Source of the DNA: Bacteroidota bacterium
GTDB taxonomy: Bacteria; Bacteroidota; Bacteroidia; B-17B0; Aurantibacillaceae
NCBI GenBank assembly: GCA_013816615.1
Contig: JACDED010000005.1
Location: forward strand, 1-64,000
Length of the DNA: 64,000 nt
Reading direction: 5' to 3'
Numbering within the stretch: position 1 is the stretch's first letter; each line of letters starts with the position of its first letter. Positions 17,409-59,061 of this stretch are shown one piece after another. A program made the position numbers and the translations under genes. Below the pieces are notes generated by a model. It was not told the DNA's origin. It saw only the letters and a list, made by a program, of their open reading frames with translations, and ran no database searches.

Positions 17409-17434
17409 TGAAACAAAAAAATCAAAATTATTTT

Positions 17435-17616
17435 GGGCGCCTTAACGGGCTGCTACAGGCTCCGCTTCGCTACGGCTTTTTGCCTTAACAGGCAAAAGAG
17501 CTAAACCTTTCGCATCCCTGGCGCAAGATCCGGAACCTGCGCCAGGGATTGCAGCGGAAATCCTTTTTAGCTTTTTCAGCTAAAAAGATTGGAGCGTAAA
17601 GCCCGCTCGGGCGCCC
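17435..17616. repeat. Multi-hairpin interspersed element, complete copy
   Basis: Terminal GGGCGCC/GGCGCCC and CGGGCT/AGCCCG, plus three internal perfect hairpins (17478-17497, 17514-17549, 17563-17587). Confidence 0.85.
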
Positions 17617-17644
17617 ACATAATATAAAAAAGTGACTTTTAAAT

Positions 17645-18349
17645 TTAAAAATTAAACGCTTTTACGGTCTTATCTTCTAAAGAAAAATACTGCGTTGTAA
17701 TTTTTCTTTTTTCTGCAATGTACTTTGCATAAGCAGGAGAATAATTTTTACGCTCTGTGATTACAGCATCATAATTATCGTTTAAGCCAATTAAAAGCTC
17801 TGTAGTTTCGCGCACAGCAAAATCACCGCCTGATGAAGAGGATAAATAATCAACCAAATTATTTTTAACACAATAATCGGCAAACAAAGGATTTGATTTT
17901 TGGTTTACCATTATGCGCAGGCCACACACCTCAGCAATAGAGAGATCCAGCACATCGTCGAAAAAATAAGCTATTTCTTCGGGCTTAATATTTTCTTTTT
18001 CGCAAATAAAATTAAGCGCCGTTATTTTATCGGCTGCTTTTGAAAATGAATAATGAAAAGCTTCGCGTTTACAAAAATAAAAAGCTGTATCGTTCTTCTC
18101 ACCACTAATAATAGCAATTAAAGGCAATTTATCGTGCCGCATATAATGAGAATAGCGCAGTAAATTAGTTCCCATGCTATCTACTTCACTAAAATTACTA
18201 CTGCCACCATCTATCTTTTGCCCGTTATTAAAAACACCATCCCAATCAAAAATAAATGCTTTTATTCTGCTTAATTTATTTCGTAGTTCACGTACAGGTG
18301 TAACAAATTTGCCACCAATGTATGCGTATTTATTTTCAATTTCTTCCAT
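17645..18349 (-). CDS. HAD-superfamily KdsC-like phosphatase
   Basis: IKAFIFDWDGVFNNG, IAIISGEK, EEIAYFFDDVLDLS, GLRIMVNQ, GGDFAVRETTELLI. Confidence 0.75.
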   Translation of the reverse strand: MEEIENKYAYIGGKFVTPVRELRNKLSRIKAFIFDWDGVFNNGQKIDGGSSNFSEVDSMGTNLLRYSHYMRHDKLPLIAIISGEKNDTAFYFCKREAFHYSFSKAADKITALNFICEKENIKPEEIAYFFDDVLDLSIAEVCGLRIMVNQKSNPLFADYCVKNNLVDYLSSSSGGDFAVRETTELLIGLNDNYDAVITERKNYSPAYAKYIAEKRKITTQYFSLEDKTVKAFNF

Positions 18350-18355
18350 AAAAAA

Positions 18356-18373
18356 AAGCCCTTTTCAGGGCTT
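18356..18373. terminator. Hairpin AAGCCCT-TTTC-AGGGCTT
   Basis: 7-bp perfect stem between the two same-strand genes. Confidence 0.5.
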
Positions 18374-18384
18374 GTTATTTTAGA

Positions 18385-19395
18385 TTAAGATTTTAAATCC
18401 TGGATATCCAACATACCAACAGGTTTTCCGCCATCGGTAACAACTATTGTATCTACATTTGTTTTCTTAAATAATAGATTAGCTTCATTTAATAAAACGT
18501 TGCCATCAATAGTAATTGGTTCGCGGTATTCAAGATCGCTTAATTTTTTAGATAAGATGTCGCGGCCTTTATCACCTAATAATTTACGAAGGCTTCCATC
18601 GGTAAATACACCTTTAATGCTGCCATCTTTTTTAACTACTGTTATAGCACCAAAATTAAATTCAGTTAATTTAATAATAGCATCAGTAATGTTAGTGTCT
18701 TCTGAAACTATAGGATTAACACCATTGATAGCTTCTTTTACTTTTACCATCATTAAGCGGGTATCCATAATAAACTGATCGGTACCAACGGTTGTAAAAT
18801 TATTTTCAGTTAATTGTTTTAATATTTTTAGTGGTACAGTAATAGTGTGTACGCCAATATTAATGGCATTACGCACATGCTCAACCGTTCTAACAGATGA
18901 GAACATGATCTTTGTATCGTAACCATAAATATCAACCGCGTCAACGCATTGCTCAACTAAAGCCAATGCATCATGACCCTGATCCTGTAAACGGCCAACT
19001 AAAGGGCAAACATAAGTAGCACCTGCCTGCATAGCCATATAAGCTTGCTGAAGCGTATAAACCAAATGTACATTTACTAAATAACCTTTATCACGCAGCA
19101 TTTTACAGGCACGAACACCTTCTAATGATACAGGGATCTTAAATACTGTTTTATTAGGGTCAAGGCCCAGTTTAATCTGGCGCTCAGCTTCAGCCAAAAC
19201 TTCTTCTGCTGTATTTCCTAAGGCCTCGATCTGAAGCACAGGAACTATTTTACTAAGCTTTACAATTGTGCCGTCAATATCGGTAATCCCTTCTTTTTGC
19301 ATAAAAGTTGGGGTGGTGGTTAAACCGTTCAAGAAGCCTAATTTAAAACCTTCTTCAATTTCTTTTAAGTTGGCTGAGTCTAAATATAATTCCAT
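18385..19395 (-). CDS. Transaldolase/fructose-6-phosphate aldolase-like protein fused to a C-terminal CBS pair
   Basis: MELYLDSANLKEIEEG, TVFKIPVSLEGVRACKML, AGATYVCPLVGRLQDQGHD; then IKGVFTDGSLRKLL / VDTIVVTDGGKPVGMLDIQDL CBS motifs. Confidence 0.85.
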   Translation of the reverse strand: MELYLDSANLKEIEEGFKLGFLNGLTTTPTFMQKEGITDIDGTIVKLSKIVPVLQIEALGNTAEEVLAEAERQIKLGLDPNKTVFKIPVSLEGVRACKMLRDKGYLVNVHLVYTLQQAYMAMQAGATYVCPLVGRLQDQGHDALALVEQCVDAVDIYGYDTKIMFSSVRTVEHVRNAINIGVHTITVPLKILKQLTENNFTTVGTDQFIMDTRLMMVKVKEAINGVNPIVSEDTNITDAIIKLTEFNFGAITVVKKDGSIKGVFTDGSLRKLLGDKGRDILSKKLSDLEYREPITIDGNVLLNEANLLFKKTNVDTIVVTDGGKPVGMLDIQDLKS

Positions 19396-20338: not shown

Positions 20339-22291
20339 TTATTTAGTAACAGTTAATTTTTTAACCATTGAACCATTTTTTGATTCAACCATTACATTAT
20401 ATAAACCGCTAGCAAATTGGGTAGCATCTAATTGAATAGCATTAACACCTACGTTTAAGTCAACTTGTTTGTTTAAAACAATTTGTCCTAAAGCGTTTAA
20501 TACTGTAACGTTTGCTTTTCCTTCAACAACAGCAGTGATGTTTAAATTAGTTTCACCTTTAGTTGGGTTAGGATACACTTCAAAACTTACTTCGTTTGTA
20601 GCGTTAGCTTTAATAGCAGTTGGATTAGCTTGCGTTAAGTTGATATTATCAACATACATATTATTTCCATAATCAGATGTTGCAACAAATTTAACTAACA
20701 GATTTGGATTGCTAGCATAAGCTGACATATTTACCAAAACTGATTTCCATTGTGTGGCAGTTGGAATGAAAGCAGCAGTTGTTAATGGAGCAGTAGCTAA
20801 AACAGTTCCAGCCTGGCTGAATACAGTTGTCCAGTTTGCACCACAATCAATTGAAGCTTTAACTTCTAATTTATCATTTTCGTTATTTGGAGAAGCAGTA
20901 TAATAAGTATAAGCTACATCAAAACCTAATACAGGCGCAGTCATAGCAGTAAGATCTGTTGGTGGCAAATAAAGATCATCAGCATCACCGATTACACCAT
21001 TGTTGTAGAAATCGTATTTAGAAGCTCCTGTGTTAGTACCATAAGCACCAACAGTTCCTAATCTTGACCAAGTTGGGCCATTATCGTTATTTACTCTTGT
21101 CCAGTTTGTTGGAGGAAAAGTTACCCCAGTAAATGCTTCAGTTACAGGTAAAGCAAAATAAGTTGGTGAACAAACAAAAATTGTTTTAGCCGTATTGTTA
21201 GCAAGGTTGTTTTCGCCACCGCTTACAGCAGTAATGTTATAAGTGTAAGTATGAGAACCCGCAGTTGTAGTAAGTAAGTTCATTGGAATAGTAGTAGAAG
21301 CGCCAGCTGCTAAGTTACCAGTCCAAACTACGTTCGCGCCAACAACAGCATCTAATGCCGGAGAAACTGTAAAAGCAGTAATTGCATTTGAACCAATGTT
21401 TTTAACAGTTACCGTTGGAATTAATGTAGTTGAACAAACTACCGCATTAATGTTAGCTGTAATTGCTTTAGCATCGTTAGTTAAAGCAGCAGGTTGAGCC
21501 ATTGCAGCTTGTGCTACTTTTTTGTTACCATCATCCTGGATAAAACCTACAAAAGCAACTTCAGATTTATCTCTGATGTATGAAGGTAATACACAGTTAA
21601 TTGTAAAAGTTTGGTTTTGTCCAACGATCCAAGAAGAAGCCATTGGCGTACCCGCTTGAATAGAAGGGAAAGATTTAACTGCTACATCCTGGAAATACGT
21701 TTCACCGTTAGTTCCTGGTTGTGTTGCGAATTGAATATTTCTTTCAGTCATAACTAAACGGTAAATTAAAGAGCCTGTTGCTGTAAAAGCAGCAGTAGCT
21801 GTAATGTTTACTGTTAATGTAACTGATGAAAAAGTTGGATCCCATGCACGTGCCATTGTAATATTAAAAGCAGATGTGTATGAAGATGCAGTAGTAATAA
21901 CTCCATTTGTTAAGTTAGCCGGATGATCAGAGATCGCACCGAAAACAGTTGCATTTTGACCGTCAATTCTGCTTGAAGGTGCAGAGCTGATAGCATAACC
22001 GTAACCACCATTTGCAACTGATTTATAACGCCAGTCGATTTCTGTTTGGTTAGTTTTATATAAAGACCATGTTGGAGTTGGAGCCGAAGGAATTGGCACC
22101 TGCCATTTAAGAGGAATTATTTTAGTAACGTTTGTTGGCGATAATAAAAGTAAGTTCAAACCAGGGTTAGTAGATGCACACGGAGGACACGTTTCTCCTG
22201 TGAACTCTTCGTATAATGACATACGTGGAGATTGAGCTACAGCTACAACTCCTGCAATCATTAATCCAAATGTTAGTAGATTTTTTTTCAT
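20339..22291 (-). CDS. T9SS-secreted Omp28/thioredoxin-like protein, paralog 1 (CPPC)
   Basis: RMSLYEEFTGETCPPCASTNPGLN; cleaved-adhesin-like DDLYLPPTDLTAM; T9SS CTD FEVYPNPTKGE...MVKKLTVTK. Confidence 0.85.
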   Translation of the reverse strand: MKKNLLTFGLMIAGVVAVAQSPRMSLYEEFTGETCPPCASTNPGLNLLLLSPTNVTKIIPLKWQVPIPSAPTPTWSLYKTNQTEIDWRYKSVANGGYGYAISSAPSSRIDGQNATVFGAISDHPANLTNGVITTASSYTSAFNITMARAWDPTFSSVTLTVNITATAAFTATGSLIYRLVMTERNIQFATQPGTNGETYFQDVAVKSFPSIQAGTPMASSWIVGQNQTFTINCVLPSYIRDKSEVAFVGFIQDDGNKKVAQAAMAQPAALTNDAKAITANINAVVCSTTLIPTVTVKNIGSNAITAFTVSPALDAVVGANVVWTGNLAAGASTTIPMNLLTTTAGSHTYTYNITAVSGGENNLANNTAKTIFVCSPTYFALPVTEAFTGVTFPPTNWTRVNNDNGPTWSRLGTVGAYGTNTGASKYDFYNNGVIGDADDLYLPPTDLTAMTAPVLGFDVAYTYYTASPNNENDKLEVKASIDCGANWTTVFSQAGTVLATAPLTTAAFIPTATQWKSVLVNMSAYASNPNLLVKFVATSDYGNNMYVDNINLTQANPTAIKANATNEVSFEVYPNPTKGETNLNITAVVEGKANVTVLNALGQIVLNKQVDLNVGVNAIQLDATQFASGLYNVMVESKNGSMVKKLTVTK

Positions 22292-22480
22292 GATTTTTAA
22301 ATTGATTTAGTTATTAATAGTCTAACAAATATAATCATCCACGTTTAATATATCAAGCAGAATTGTGTTAAAAACAAAAGTTTCATTATGGGCTTCAACT
22401 CGCCCGCTAATTCATGCATTTAGCCACTTTTAAACATTCAAAAAACTCATTTTTGAGGTTCATCTAAATAATCTAAAAAC

Positions 22481-22516
22481 AAAAAAGGCTGCTTTTTAAA
22501 GAAAGCAGCCTTTTTT
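22481..22516. terminator. Hairpin AAAAAAGGCTGCTTT...AAAGCAGCCTTTTTT
   Basis: 15-bp perfect stem. Confidence 0.88.
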
Positions 22517-22534
22517 AGAAAAAATTAAAATTCC

Positions 22535-24523
22535 TTACTTTGAAATGATCAGTTTTTTAGTCTGTTTTTTGTTTTCAGATTGTAAAGTTATAATGTAAAC
22601 ACCTGCTGCTAAATTTTTGCAATCAAAATTTACATTATTTGATCCAATATTTAATTTATGATCGTTACTATAAACTAATTGCCCTATCGAATTCATAACA
22701 CTTATTTTTACTTCTGCATTTACAGCCGCTTTTACAAAAACAGTTGCTTCATCAGTTGCAGGATTTGGATAAATTTCAAACTCTAAATTAACAGCTTCTG
22801 TGTTTTTTACTGATAAAGGACTGGTTTGTTGTAAATTAATATTATCTAAAAACAAACGATTACCTACATTACTCTTACCCCAAAATTTTACTAATACCTG
22901 TGGTGCATTTGCATAAGCTGCTAAAGGTATAGCCGTGGTTGACCATTGTGCGGCTGTTGGAACAAAGAATGTAGCACCGTTAACTGGCGCTGTAGCCATT
23001 GTACTTCCACCGTTTGAATAAATAGTAGTCCAGGTGTTTCCACAGTCTGTTGAGATCTTAGCTTTTAACGAATCTTTTGAAGATGCTGAGATCTGGCAAT
23101 ACGAAATATCAAATCTTAATTCAGGATTTGTAATTCCCGTAAGATCAGTTGGTGGTAAATAAATTTCATCAATATCTCCATTTGTAATTGAATTTACCTG
23201 GAATAACATTGATTCACCACTTAAACCATACCCCCCCGCTAATGTACTTCTTGTAAATGTATTAACGCCATTGTCAAGATTAAATAACGCCCAGTTTGTT
23301 GGAGGGAAAGTAGTACTTACAAAACCTTGATTTACCGGACCCGCGAAATAAGTTGTAGGTGTAATAAAGAATAACTTTTTAGTGTTATTGCTTGATACAA
23401 CATCGCCACCACTAACGCCAGAAATATTATAAGAATAGGTATGCGCTCCGGCAGAAGTGTTGATCAAATTCATAATAACACCTGTAGTTGCTGTTGGCGC
23501 TAAGCTTCCTGTCCAAAAAATATCTGCACCCGGAACACCATCTAACACCGGTGTTATAGTCATTGCTGTAATAGCATTTACACCATTATTTTTAATACTG
23601 ATGTTTGGAACTAAAGTAGAAGTACATCCTACAGAAGGAATTGAAATAGATAATGCTTTAGCATCGTTTGAAATTTGAGGCTGCAATGTTCTTGCTGCTT
23701 GGTAGATTTTTTTTGTTCCGTCTTCCTGCACAAAACCTACAAAAGCCATTTGGCCTTTATCATAAATATATGAAGGTATAGCACAGTTAACTACAAAAGT
23801 TTGTGTTTGTCCTGCTATCCATGTGCCCGGTAATAATGTACCCATGCTGGTTAAAGCTGTACCTGTACCAACTGTAGTTGGATAGGATTTTCTAACCGGA
23901 TCAGCAAAATCTTTTTCGCCATTAGTTCCTGAGGGCGAATCAAAATTGATCAAACGTTCAACTAAACATAAACGGTAAACTAAATTACCCGAAGCGGTAA
24001 ACGCTGTTGAAGATTGTACCGTAACAGTAACCGCGCAGTTGTTGAATAAAGGATCCCAGGCAGTAGTCATGTTAATTGAAAAATTTGTTGTTTGAGATTG
24101 CGCGCTGCTAATAACTGCATTGCTGATATAAAAAGGATGATCTTGTGGTGCACCAAAATCCCATTGATGTCTTCCATCTAAACGGCCCGCAGGCGCAGAG
24201 TTAATACCATTGGTAATTGAACTAGTGGGTGTGTTTTGACTTGGATAATTATATCCTGTAGATTTATAACGCCAGTCTATTTCTGCCTGATTTGTTTTGT
24301 ATAATGACCAGGTGTTTGACGGGGCTGAAGGAATTGGCACCTGCCATTTAATAGCAATAACTTTAGCACTGTTATTTGCCAAAGTTACATTTAACGCAGG
24401 ATTGGTTGATGCACATGGCGCGCAATTCTCTCCTGTAAATTCTTCAAATAACGACATACGCACTTGTGCATTTGTGCATAAAGCTGTTATTAGTAATGCT
24501 AAAATTAAGTAAGTTTTTTTCAT
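22535..24523 (-). CDS. T9SS-secreted Omp28/thioredoxin-like protein, paralog 2 (CAPC)
   Basis: RMSLFEEFTGENCAPCASTNPALN; same layout as paralog 1; CTD FEIYPNPATDEA...QTKKLIISK. Confidence 0.85.
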   Translation of the reverse strand: MKKTYLILALLITALCTNAQVRMSLFEEFTGENCAPCASTNPALNVTLANNSAKVIAIKWQVPIPSAPSNTWSLYKTNQAEIDWRYKSTGYNYPSQNTPTSSITNGINSAPAGRLDGRHQWDFGAPQDHPFYISNAVISSAQSQTTNFSINMTTAWDPLFNNCAVTVTVQSSTAFTASGNLVYRLCLVERLINFDSPSGTNGEKDFADPVRKSYPTTVGTGTALTSMGTLLPGTWIAGQTQTFVVNCAIPSYIYDKGQMAFVGFVQEDGTKKIYQAARTLQPQISNDAKALSISIPSVGCTSTLVPNISIKNNGVNAITAMTITPVLDGVPGADIFWTGSLAPTATTGVIMNLINTSAGAHTYSYNISGVSGGDVVSSNNTKKLFFITPTTYFAGPVNQGFVSTTFPPTNWALFNLDNGVNTFTRSTLAGGYGLSGESMLFQVNSITNGDIDEIYLPPTDLTGITNPELRFDISYCQISASSKDSLKAKISTDCGNTWTTIYSNGGSTMATAPVNGATFFVPTAAQWSTTAIPLAAYANAPQVLVKFWGKSNVGNRLFLDNINLQQTSPLSVKNTEAVNLEFEIYPNPATDEATVFVKAAVNAEVKISVMNSIGQLVYSNDHKLNIGSNNVNFDCKNLAAGVYIITLQSENKKQTKKLIISK

Positions 24524-24613
24524 CGATTATTATTTAAAGGTTATTTCTTTTAGAGCCTAGACATCTAAGTTAAATATCAATTATTGAAAAATCAATATTA
24601 ATATGTTAAAATA

Positions 24614-24643
24614 AAAAGGCTGCCCCAAAACGGGCAGCCTTTT
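24614..24643. terminator. Hairpin AAAAGGCTGCCC...GGGCAGCCTTTT
   Basis: 12-bp perfect stem. Confidence 0.88.
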
Positions 24644-24661
24644 AAATGTATTAAAGAAAAA

Positions 24662-26578
24662 TTATTTAGAAATAATTAATTTTTTTGTGCTTGAATTTTT
24701 ACCTGATTCAACAATTAAAAAATAAACACCGTTTGCAAATTCTTTAGTATCTAATTTAATATTTGTAGATCCTGCATTAACCGTTGCTTGTTTTATGTAA
24801 ACAACTTGCCCAATAGCATTCATTACTTTAATTGTTGAAGTTCCTGAGTTAGCAGAAGTAATTTTTAAAGTAGTTTCATTTGCTGCAGGATTTGGGAAAA
24901 CAGAAAGGTTTGCGTCTTCGCGATTTATGATAGCAATACCTGATGGGTTAGGCTGCGAAAGATTAATATTATCTAAGTAAAGATTATTTCCGTTATCGTT
25001 GGTAACTTTAAATTTGATCAACACATTTGGCATAGCAAATCCAGTTAATGCTATAGTTTCGCTAATCCAATCAGATGATTGTAGTGCATTAAACACCGAA
25101 GTAGTTGCGCCTGTTGTAGCTAATACCGATCCTGCTTTGCTATAAACATTTGTCCATGTTGCCCCGCAATTACTCGAAACAAGAATATCTAATTTATCAT
25201 TCTCACTATTACGTTGTGCTTTTGCAATATCAAATTTCAATACAGGCACACCCGATCCGTCTAAATTTGTTGGCGGCAAGTATAACTCATCCTCATCGCC
25301 AATTACAGTGTTTGTATAAAAATCAAATTTAACAGCTCCAAAATCATTTGAATTGGCAAAAGCACCGGTATTTACTACTCTGCTAAAAGTTGGGCCGTTG
25401 TTTGAGTTTACCCTTGTCCAGTTTACCGGAGGAAAAGTAGCAAATGCAAAATCTTCATTTATTGTTCCTATTTGAGAATTCGTAGCCACTAAATAATTTA
25501 CTTTATTAGAAACAACAAATAAATTATAGGGATTCGCCATTACTAATGTATAAGAAAACGTGTGAACTCCTGAAGCAGTTGGAGTACTGGTTGCATCTAA
25601 AACCAAAGTATTGGTTGCACCAGCAGCTAAATTACCTGTCCATTGTGTAGGAGTTCCGGCAATACCATCATTATATGGTGTTACTGTAAAAGCAGTGATA
25701 GGATTTGCGCCATTATTTTTAATAATGATTTGTGGTGTAATGGTTGAAGCACATGTTACATCAACTTTAGCATCTAAAGCTGTTAAAGCATCTGTAGGTA
25801 TAGCAACTTTATCTGCCATTGCTGCTTGTAAAACATTTTTATTTGCTTCGTTTTGAATAAAACAAACAAGTGCTACTTCACTTTTTTTTCTTGTATATGC
25901 AGGCATTGGGCAATTAAGTGTAAAAGTTTGTGTTTGGCCTGTAGTCCAGTTATTACCAATACTCATACCACCTAAAGTTGGGAAAGATTTAATAGCTGCA
26001 TTTTCAAAATTCTTTTCACCATTGGTACCCGGCTGTACGCTAAACTGTATAAGCCTTTCAACCATTACTGTTTTTAAATTTAAAGCGCCTGTAGTTGCAA
26101 AATTAGCACTTGCCTGGATAGTAACAGTTAAGTTTACCGAGCTACAGGTTGCATCCCATGCACGTACCATTGTAATTGCAAATGGTGAAGTAATTGCCTG
26201 CGAAGTATTAATTAAAGATGGTGTACAATAAACAGCGTGATCTGATGTTCCACCAAAAACCGTAAGGCTTTGTCCGTCCATTCTGCCTTGTGGTGCAGAG
26301 TTAACAGAATAATAACTCAAACGTGCATTTGCTTCGGCAGCATTTGTTTGGTATAAAGACCATGTAGTTGTTGGCGCACTTGGAATTGGCACCTGCCATT
26401 TAATCGCAACAACTTTTGAAGCATTAGCAGTTAAAGTAGCATTTAGGCCTGGGTTTGTACTGGCGCATGGCGGACAGGTTTCCCCGGTAAATTCTTCAAA
26501 CAAAGATAAACGCGGCGTTTGTGCAAAAACAGTCATGCCAGCAATCATCAATGTTGTTATAAGTAAACTTTTTTTCAT
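24662..26578 (-). CDS. T9SS-secreted Omp28/thioredoxin-like protein, paralog 3 (CPPC)
   Basis: RLSLFEEFTGETCPPCASTNPGLN; same layout; CTD LSVFPNPAANET...STKKLIISK. Confidence 0.85.
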   Translation of the reverse strand: MKKSLLITTLMIAGMTVFAQTPRLSLFEEFTGETCPPCASTNPGLNATLTANASKVVAIKWQVPIPSAPTTTWSLYQTNAAEANARLSYYSVNSAPQGRMDGQSLTVFGGTSDHAVYCTPSLINTSQAITSPFAITMVRAWDATCSSVNLTVTIQASANFATTGALNLKTVMVERLIQFSVQPGTNGEKNFENAAIKSFPTLGGMSIGNNWTTGQTQTFTLNCPMPAYTRKKSEVALVCFIQNEANKNVLQAAMADKVAIPTDALTALDAKVDVTCASTITPQIIIKNNGANPITAFTVTPYNDGIAGTPTQWTGNLAAGATNTLVLDATSTPTASGVHTFSYTLVMANPYNLFVVSNKVNYLVATNSQIGTINEDFAFATFPPVNWTRVNSNNGPTFSRVVNTGAFANSNDFGAVKFDFYTNTVIGDEDELYLPPTNLDGSGVPVLKFDIAKAQRNSENDKLDILVSSNCGATWTNVYSKAGSVLATTGATTSVFNALQSSDWISETIALTGFAMPNVLIKFKVTNDNGNNLYLDNINLSQPNPSGIAIINREDANLSVFPNPAANETTLKITSANSGTSTIKVMNAIGQVVYIKQATVNAGSTNIKLDTKEFANGVYFLIVESGKNSSTKKLIISK

Positions 26579-58964: not shown

Positions 58965-59061
58965 GGCGTTGCCTCCGGCCCGGGCCGCTATGGACTCCGC
59001 TTCGCTTCGGTTTTTTGCCTTAGCAGGCAAAAGAACTAAACCCTTCGCATCCCTAACGCAA
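58965..59061. repeat. Multi-hairpin interspersed element, truncated copy
   Basis: GGGCGTTGCC...CTCCGCTTCGCTTCGGTTTTTTGCCTTAGCAGGCAAAAGAACTAAACCCTTCGCATCCCTAACGCA aligns with 17435-17524. Confidence 0.8.

Follow-up and report, generated by a model that had tools for sequence, protein, structure and literature searches.

Architecture of the fusion gene and the adjoining phosphatase gene

The window examined here comprises 64,000 nucleotides (positions 1 to 64,000 of the forward strand of contig JACDED010000005.1, assembly GCA_013816615.1) from a Bacteroidota bacterium of the family Aurantibacillaceae. On its reverse strand, positions 18385..19395 encode a 336-aa fusion protein, in which a transaldolase/fructose-6-phosphate aldolase (TAL/FSA) barrel is joined to a pair of CBS domains of the type found in the isomerase KdsD. 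This TAL-CBS architecture, which had been proposed in an earlier note on this DNA, was borne out by the open reading frame and by Pfam and NCBIfam domain searches. The fusion is proposed here to replace KdsD as the source of D-arabinose 5-phosphate (A5P) for the synthesis of 3-deoxy-D-manno-octulosonate (Kdo), a conserved inner sugar of lipopolysaccharide.

The barrel (residues 1-217; 18745..19395, reverse strand) was delineated by Pfam, residue conservation and an AlphaFold model. It matches TAL_FSA (PF00923) over the cut-off across residues 3-201 (E 5e-36), while its nearest NCBIfam model, fsa_talC_mipB (TIGR00875; E 2e-47), is matched with 161.6 bits, below the equivalog cut-off of 245.95. 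The AlphaFold model of the fusion is confident (predicted local distance difference test score of 91), and the modelled barrel was shown to resemble solved transaldolases with a template modelling score of 0.92. A housekeeping transaldolase was ruled out as the identity of the fusion, because the host genome carries a separate, canonical transaldolase on contig C107.

The CBS pair (residues 218-334; 18394..18744, reverse strand), which contains GVFTDGSLRKLL and GKPVGMLDIQDL, comprises two Pfam CBS stretches (E 8e-13) and was assigned to the KdsD type by Pfam, NCBIfam and a phylogenetic tree. Its best NCBIfam CBS matches are kpsF (1e-14) and KdsD (1e-13), and the best solved-structure match is the CBS pair of an arabinose-5-phosphate isomerase (PDB 4o9k). 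In a tree of 56 rows, the CBS pairs of the fusion and of KdsD grouped as sisters, separate from the 14 further CBS proteins included, in line with the relationship suggested earlier, with a support of 92/80 that is not decisive. Comparison with the TIGR00393 profile did not reveal an SIS sugar-isomerase domain in the fusion, the match being confined to the CBS region (residues 213-329; 54.5 bits versus a cut-off of 203.7).

Downstream of the fusion, positions 17645..18349 of the reverse strand encode a KdsC-like HAD phosphatase of 234 aa with an N-terminal IGGxFVTP extension, as assessed by NCBIfam, structure matches and alignment. Its matches to the KdsC (9e-15; TIGR01670, 44.7 bits, cut-off 106.95) and KdsC-phosphatas (1e-11) models both fall below cut-off; these profile matches, together with KdsC enzymes as the nearest solved structures, uphold the KdsC likeness first read from the sequence. 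Alignment of 101 sequences showed the catalytic Asp pair, Lys and DD motif of HAD enzymes (D35, D37, K108, D131, D132 and D135) to be kept in 95% or more of them. A terminator-like hairpin (AAGCCCT-GAAA-AGGGCTT) followed by a T run lies between the two genes (18350..18373, reverse strand) and ends at the ATG start codon of the HAD gene. This hairpin, also pointed out earlier, is real. Versions of it that differ in sequence occur in many close relatives (a strict test detected them in 32 of 93 intergenic gaps), whereas in other relatives the gap between fusion and HAD gene measures 0-3 nt and has no hairpin. It may act as a leaky terminator, setting the ratio of fusion and HAD products.

A dispersed repeat is located downstream of the HAD gene (window positions 17431-17630), with an 18-nt inverted repeat lacking a spacer (17514-17549, 89% complementary). 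An 81-bp piece, 86% identical to this repeat, recurs at 58981-59061.

Conservation of the active site within the fusion family

More than 130 full-length TAL-CBS members with 54-98% identity were found, and the fusion architecture is thus far from a chance arrangement; a genome-collection scan yielded 80 fusion loci at ≥79% identity. Beyond the fusions, the next matches are ordinary transaldolases with at most 40% identity. Sequence alignment revealed that the predicted Schiff-base lysine, K86 (codon 19138-19140, reverse strand), is invariant in 136 of 136 main-clade fusions, as are E57, N108, R135, S167 and R169, while D6 is kept in 135, the remaining row having a gap in that column. All of these residues are present in the fusion of the window. 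The catalytic lysine and the phosphate-site residues are therefore intact throughout the main clade, as the aldolase assignment of the earlier note presupposes.

Four barrel positions have been switched as a set (N28T, T110H, S130C and F132L), all of them in the donor pocket. T28 (19312-19314), H110 (19066-19068), C130 (19006-19008) and L132, encoded on the reverse strand, occur in all main-clade fusions, where the transaldolases of Bacteroidia themselves have N, T, S and F. In FSA, Asn28, Thr109, Ala129 and Tyr131 touch the donor or keep the catalytic water in place, with N28 and A129 contacting the donor (PMC13259622). The corresponding FSA/TAL donor and water residues (Asn28, Thr109, Ser/Ala129 and Tyr/Phe131) were absent from all main-clade fusions. 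As the phosphate-end residues and the Schiff-base lysine are conserved and the donor positions switched, the donor end of the pocket has been rebuilt.

Five divergent fusions (family f53; L186-L190), with 35-40% identity, have R or S in place of K86 and have lost most other catalytic residues. No KdsA match was found in their genomes (G378, G516, G438, G409 and G465), and these copies thus serve as a natural control, in which loss of the pathway accompanies loss of the catalytic residues. A dead enzyme, ruled out for the main clade by K86, is an apt description of these five copies.

All five f53 genomes still carry the catalytically degenerate TAL-CBS protein. WaaA and canonical KdsC were present in the three that were tested, without a KdsA match, and KdsD is missing from all except G465. 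In two further loci (L066:6083-7306 and L173:1291-2514), mechanical start choice places the beginning of the TAL-CBS frame ~70 residues further upstream than in the remaining members, a putative extension.

Distribution of the fusion relative to KdsD

KdsD-type isomerases are, to our knowledge, the only A5P source of the Kdo pathway in bacteria. In a class sample of 395 Bacteroidia genomes, a full or near-full-length fusion match was detected in 76 (approximately a fifth), most of these carriers being metagenome bins, KdsD in 225 and KdsA in 287. Among the 287 KdsA-positive genomes, 213 contained KdsD only, 65 the fusion only, four both and five neither; four of the latter five are 60-83% complete. 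Fisher's test of this exclusion gives p = 3.5e-53, a value uncorrected for phylogeny that assumes an independence the genomes do not have. A better argument is provided by eight families (f3, f9, f11, f52, f55, f61, f84 and f95) that hold both fusion-only and KdsD-only members.

No KdsD match approaching the family cut-off was obtained in 43 of 44 fusion genomes, which showed CBS and weak SIS fragments only, and KdsA was present in 43 of the 44. Conversely, KdsD scored over cut-off in 66 of 69 fusion-free Bacteroidia, with two more exhibiting a single-domain SIS match. The earlier note had asked whether canonical kdsD and kdsA exist elsewhere in the genome: KdsD is absent where fusion and KdsA occur, and in the host genome KdsA was located on contig C217 and WaaA on C245. 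WaaA was found in all 17 genomes with fusion and KdsA that were tested. An extra canonical KdsA in three genomes (G323, G436 and G471) and a KdsD on a 3,276-base contig in G316 may represent binning contamination and were not used as evidence.

Gene neighbourhood and the linked KdsA subfamily

The HAD gene was present in 62 of 84 fusion loci and directly followed the fusion in 57, indicative of co-conservation of the two genes, which are accompanied by kdsA and kdsB in many genomes. Operons of the order kdnA-kdnB-kdsA-fusion-HAD-kdsB occur in several lineages, a kdsA-fusion-HAD operon was observed in isolates G091, G293 and G146, and kdsB adjoins the fusion in ~20 related loci; examples of the neighbouring KdsA and KdsB score over NCBIfam cut-off. 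These neighbours and the co-occurrence with KdsA rule out a nonulosonate or unrelated pathway. Of the Kdo or nonulosonate-like branch originally suggested for this locus, the Kdo part is retained, as the entry step (A5P supply) of the ordinary pathway, and the nonulosonate part is dropped.

The labels kdnA and kdnB, unconfirmed by a curated model, denote an aminotransferase and an iron-type alcohol dehydrogenase gene, which we presume to be analogous to the Shewanella genes for 8-amino-8-deoxy-Kdo (Kdo8N). As 11 of 43 fusion genomes lack them and 6 of 25 KdsD genomes carry them, these putative tailoring genes are frequent but optional companions of the fusion. With regard to the HAD protein, no KdsC model match over cut-off was found in genomes G091, G293, G444 and G644, where HAD is the best match; for this reason HAD is probably the Kdo-8-phosphate (Kdo8P) phosphatase in some genomes. 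The host genome (G000), like several more, additionally carries a canonical KdsC, and HAD was also found without the fusion (G250).

The fusion-linked KdsA proteins form one long-stemmed clade, with ~67-80% identity to a reference member and ~42-51% to KdsD-type KdsA, and most fusion genomes have no KdsA besides this subfamily. They exhibit invariant switches at the substrate site (KANRS to KDNRS, LCRQ to LCMQ, VKKGQF to V/IKHGQF and THSLQ to THxIR), which we take to include R106M, K125H and Q188R in Aquifex numbering, and which raised the possibility of a substrate other than A5P. Genome G250, a single contig of 7.03 Mb from the family of fusion carrier G190, decides this point within the limits of sequence evidence. 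It harbours the operon kdnA-kdnB-kdsA-HAD-kdsB (L263), with a KdsA that is 77% identical and has the same four motifs; a full-length fusion was not found in this genome, and an ordinary KdsD is encoded elsewhere, adjoining a RecQ-like gene. Since G250 pairs the linked-type KdsA with KdsD, the substrate of this KdsA would, if KdsD-fed, be A5P, and a linked-type KdsA able to use the KdsD product implies that the fusion most simply supplies A5P. An amino-sugar substrate for the linked KdsA (KDNRS, Arg-to-Met) was ruled out, both by G250 and by the fusion genomes that lack kdnA/kdnB.

In the window, three consecutive, mutually similar proteins of 638-662 aa, with a CPPCASTNPGLN-like motif and a C-terminal sorting-like end, are encoded upstream of the fusion (20339-26578). 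This set recurs upstream of the fusion in many relatives.

Proposed role of the fusion and alternative explanations

The exclusion of KdsD, the operons, the catalytic residues and the nearness of the CBS pair to that of KdsD support the proposal that an aldolase domain has taken the place of an isomerase domain next to a CBS module of the KdsD type, as part of a non-canonical Kdo route that includes a KdsC-like phosphatase. That the fusion replaces KdsD as A5P source, by Schiff-base aldol chemistry read broadly, is given a probability of roughly 0.6 as a whole statement. Its parts carry different weights: non-orthologous replacement of KdsD is highly probable; A5P as the product is, given replacement, very likely; and an aldol or retro-aldol mechanism is, given both, reasonably likely. 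Even odds are assigned to the more specific proposal of a natural, CBS-regulated A5P aldolase, using either glycolaldehyde and glyceraldehyde 3-phosphate (GA3P) or retro-aldol exchange from ribose 5-phosphate (R5P), and bypassing isomerisation of ribulose 5-phosphate (Ru5P). By analogy with FSA, the most likely reaction would be that of glycolaldehyde with GA3P.

In the proposed route, the fusion would make A5P as acceptor for KdsA, which would condense it with phosphoenolpyruvate to Kdo8P; HAD would then remove the phosphate, in at least some genomes, and KdsB would activate Kdo, often after conversion to Kdo8N by KdnB/KdnA. Within the barrel, K86 is predicted to form a Schiff base with glycolaldehyde, E57 and H110 may take over the proton and water steps performed by Q59, T109 and Y131 in FSA, and the enamine would add to GA3P, held by R135, S167 and R169, to yield A5P. 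The CBS pair may tune activity to a nucleotide or cytidine monophosphate (CMP)-Kdo signal, CMP-Kdo feedback being plausible. E. coli FSA converts glycolaldehyde and GA3P to A5P only, without R5P, whereas TalB F178Y yields both (PMC9947464). The in vitro formation of A5P by FSA provides a chemical precedent for such an aldolase on a TAL/FSA barrel, and the rebuilt donor pocket fits a donor without the hydroxymethyl group of dihydroxyacetone (DHA).

Several observations weigh against this role. The supply of glycolaldehyde in fusion-carrying bacteria is unexplained, and FSA chemistry is not simply transferable, because the proton-shuttle Tyr131 of FSA is Leu and its Thr109 is His in the fusion. 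Furthermore, the exclusion is not strict: G556, G577 and G650 (genus g259), perhaps representing a transitional state, carry both KdsD and the fusion, as does G631. Finally, the KdsA partners have active-site switches of their own, which in G250 are independent of the fusion.

Among the alternatives, the one that survives best, although unlikely, retains the KdsD reaction: the barrel would have become a Ru5P-to-A5P isomerase, with H110 and E57 as base and acid. Such a drop-in swap would not need glycolaldehyde, and it accords with a CBS module that is the same as that of KdsD, with the invariant T110H and E57, and with the lost DHA-donor contacts. However, aldose-ketose isomerase activity is not known to us from any member of the TAL family, and the Schiff-base lysine, which every main-clade fusion retains and which has disappeared from the relatives that have no KdsA, suggests imine chemistry. 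Rather improbable is an R5P 2-epimerase, acting by retro-aldol cleavage and re-addition of enzyme-bound glycolaldehyde; we know of no physiological epimerase precedent in the TAL family. This mechanism would nevertheless dispense with free glycolaldehyde, and the formation of A5P and R5P by TalB F178Y indicates that TAL sites can form either epimer (PMC9947464).

Less probable still is a different octulosonate, for which the fusion would supply another aldose phosphate to a matched KdsA subfamily. The separate KdsA clade and its substrate-site switches would suit this explanation, but the same subfamily occurs with KdsD and without the fusion in G250, the neighbouring KdsB scores over the cut-off of its models, and WaaA was found in all 17 fusion genomes tested, although this KdsA is the sole one in most fusion genomes. 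A regulatory or unrelated fusion, with A5P made by a moonlighting isomerase such as GlmS, is very improbable: eukaryotic GFAT can form A5P from Ru5P and complements an E. coli mutant deficient in A5P isomerase (PMC11301363), but this would leave the KdsD exclusion, the operon position and the conserved catalytic lysine unexplained.

If replacement of KdsD by the fusion is correct, a second, unrelated A5P enzyme, present in roughly one in five of the Bacteroidia sampled, fills a gap in the pathway that automated annotation does not close, and the FSA-type A5P reaction, so far confined to in vitro and synthetic pathways, acquires a physiological role. The fusion would then also be a naturally occurring A5P aldolase, such as is wanted for glycolaldehyde assimilation (PMC9947464). 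The fused CBS pair would exemplify a regulatory module that has been transferred from one catalytic domain to another, unrelated one serving the same step, and the distinct linked KdsA subfamily (L263 of G250, L128-L156 and linked loci) deserves kinetic study itself. Neither a TAL-CBS fusion nor a replacement of KdsD was found described in the open-access subset of the literature that was searched, in which absence is weak evidence.

Comparison with known systems

The fusion shares its fold, Schiff-base lysine, D6 and phosphate-site Arg/Ser residues with FSA and TalC-MipB (TIGR00875), and differs from them in its four donor-pocket switches, the attached CBS pair and a score below the family cut-off. 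The HAD protein resembles KdsC in its conserved motifs, the company of kdsA/kdsB and its best solved-structure matches, whereas it is ~40-60 residues longer, with the IGGxFVTP extension, and scores below curated cut-offs. The aminotransferase and iron-type alcohol dehydrogenase genes of fusion operons recall the kdnA/kdnB pair of the Shewanella-type Kdo8N system. With KdsD, KpsF and GutQ, the fusion has in common a C-terminal CBS pair of the same kind and the same place in the Kdo pathway, with a mutually exclusive distribution; in contrast to these isomerases, it has no SIS domain, and its catalytic domain is a TAL/FSA barrel.
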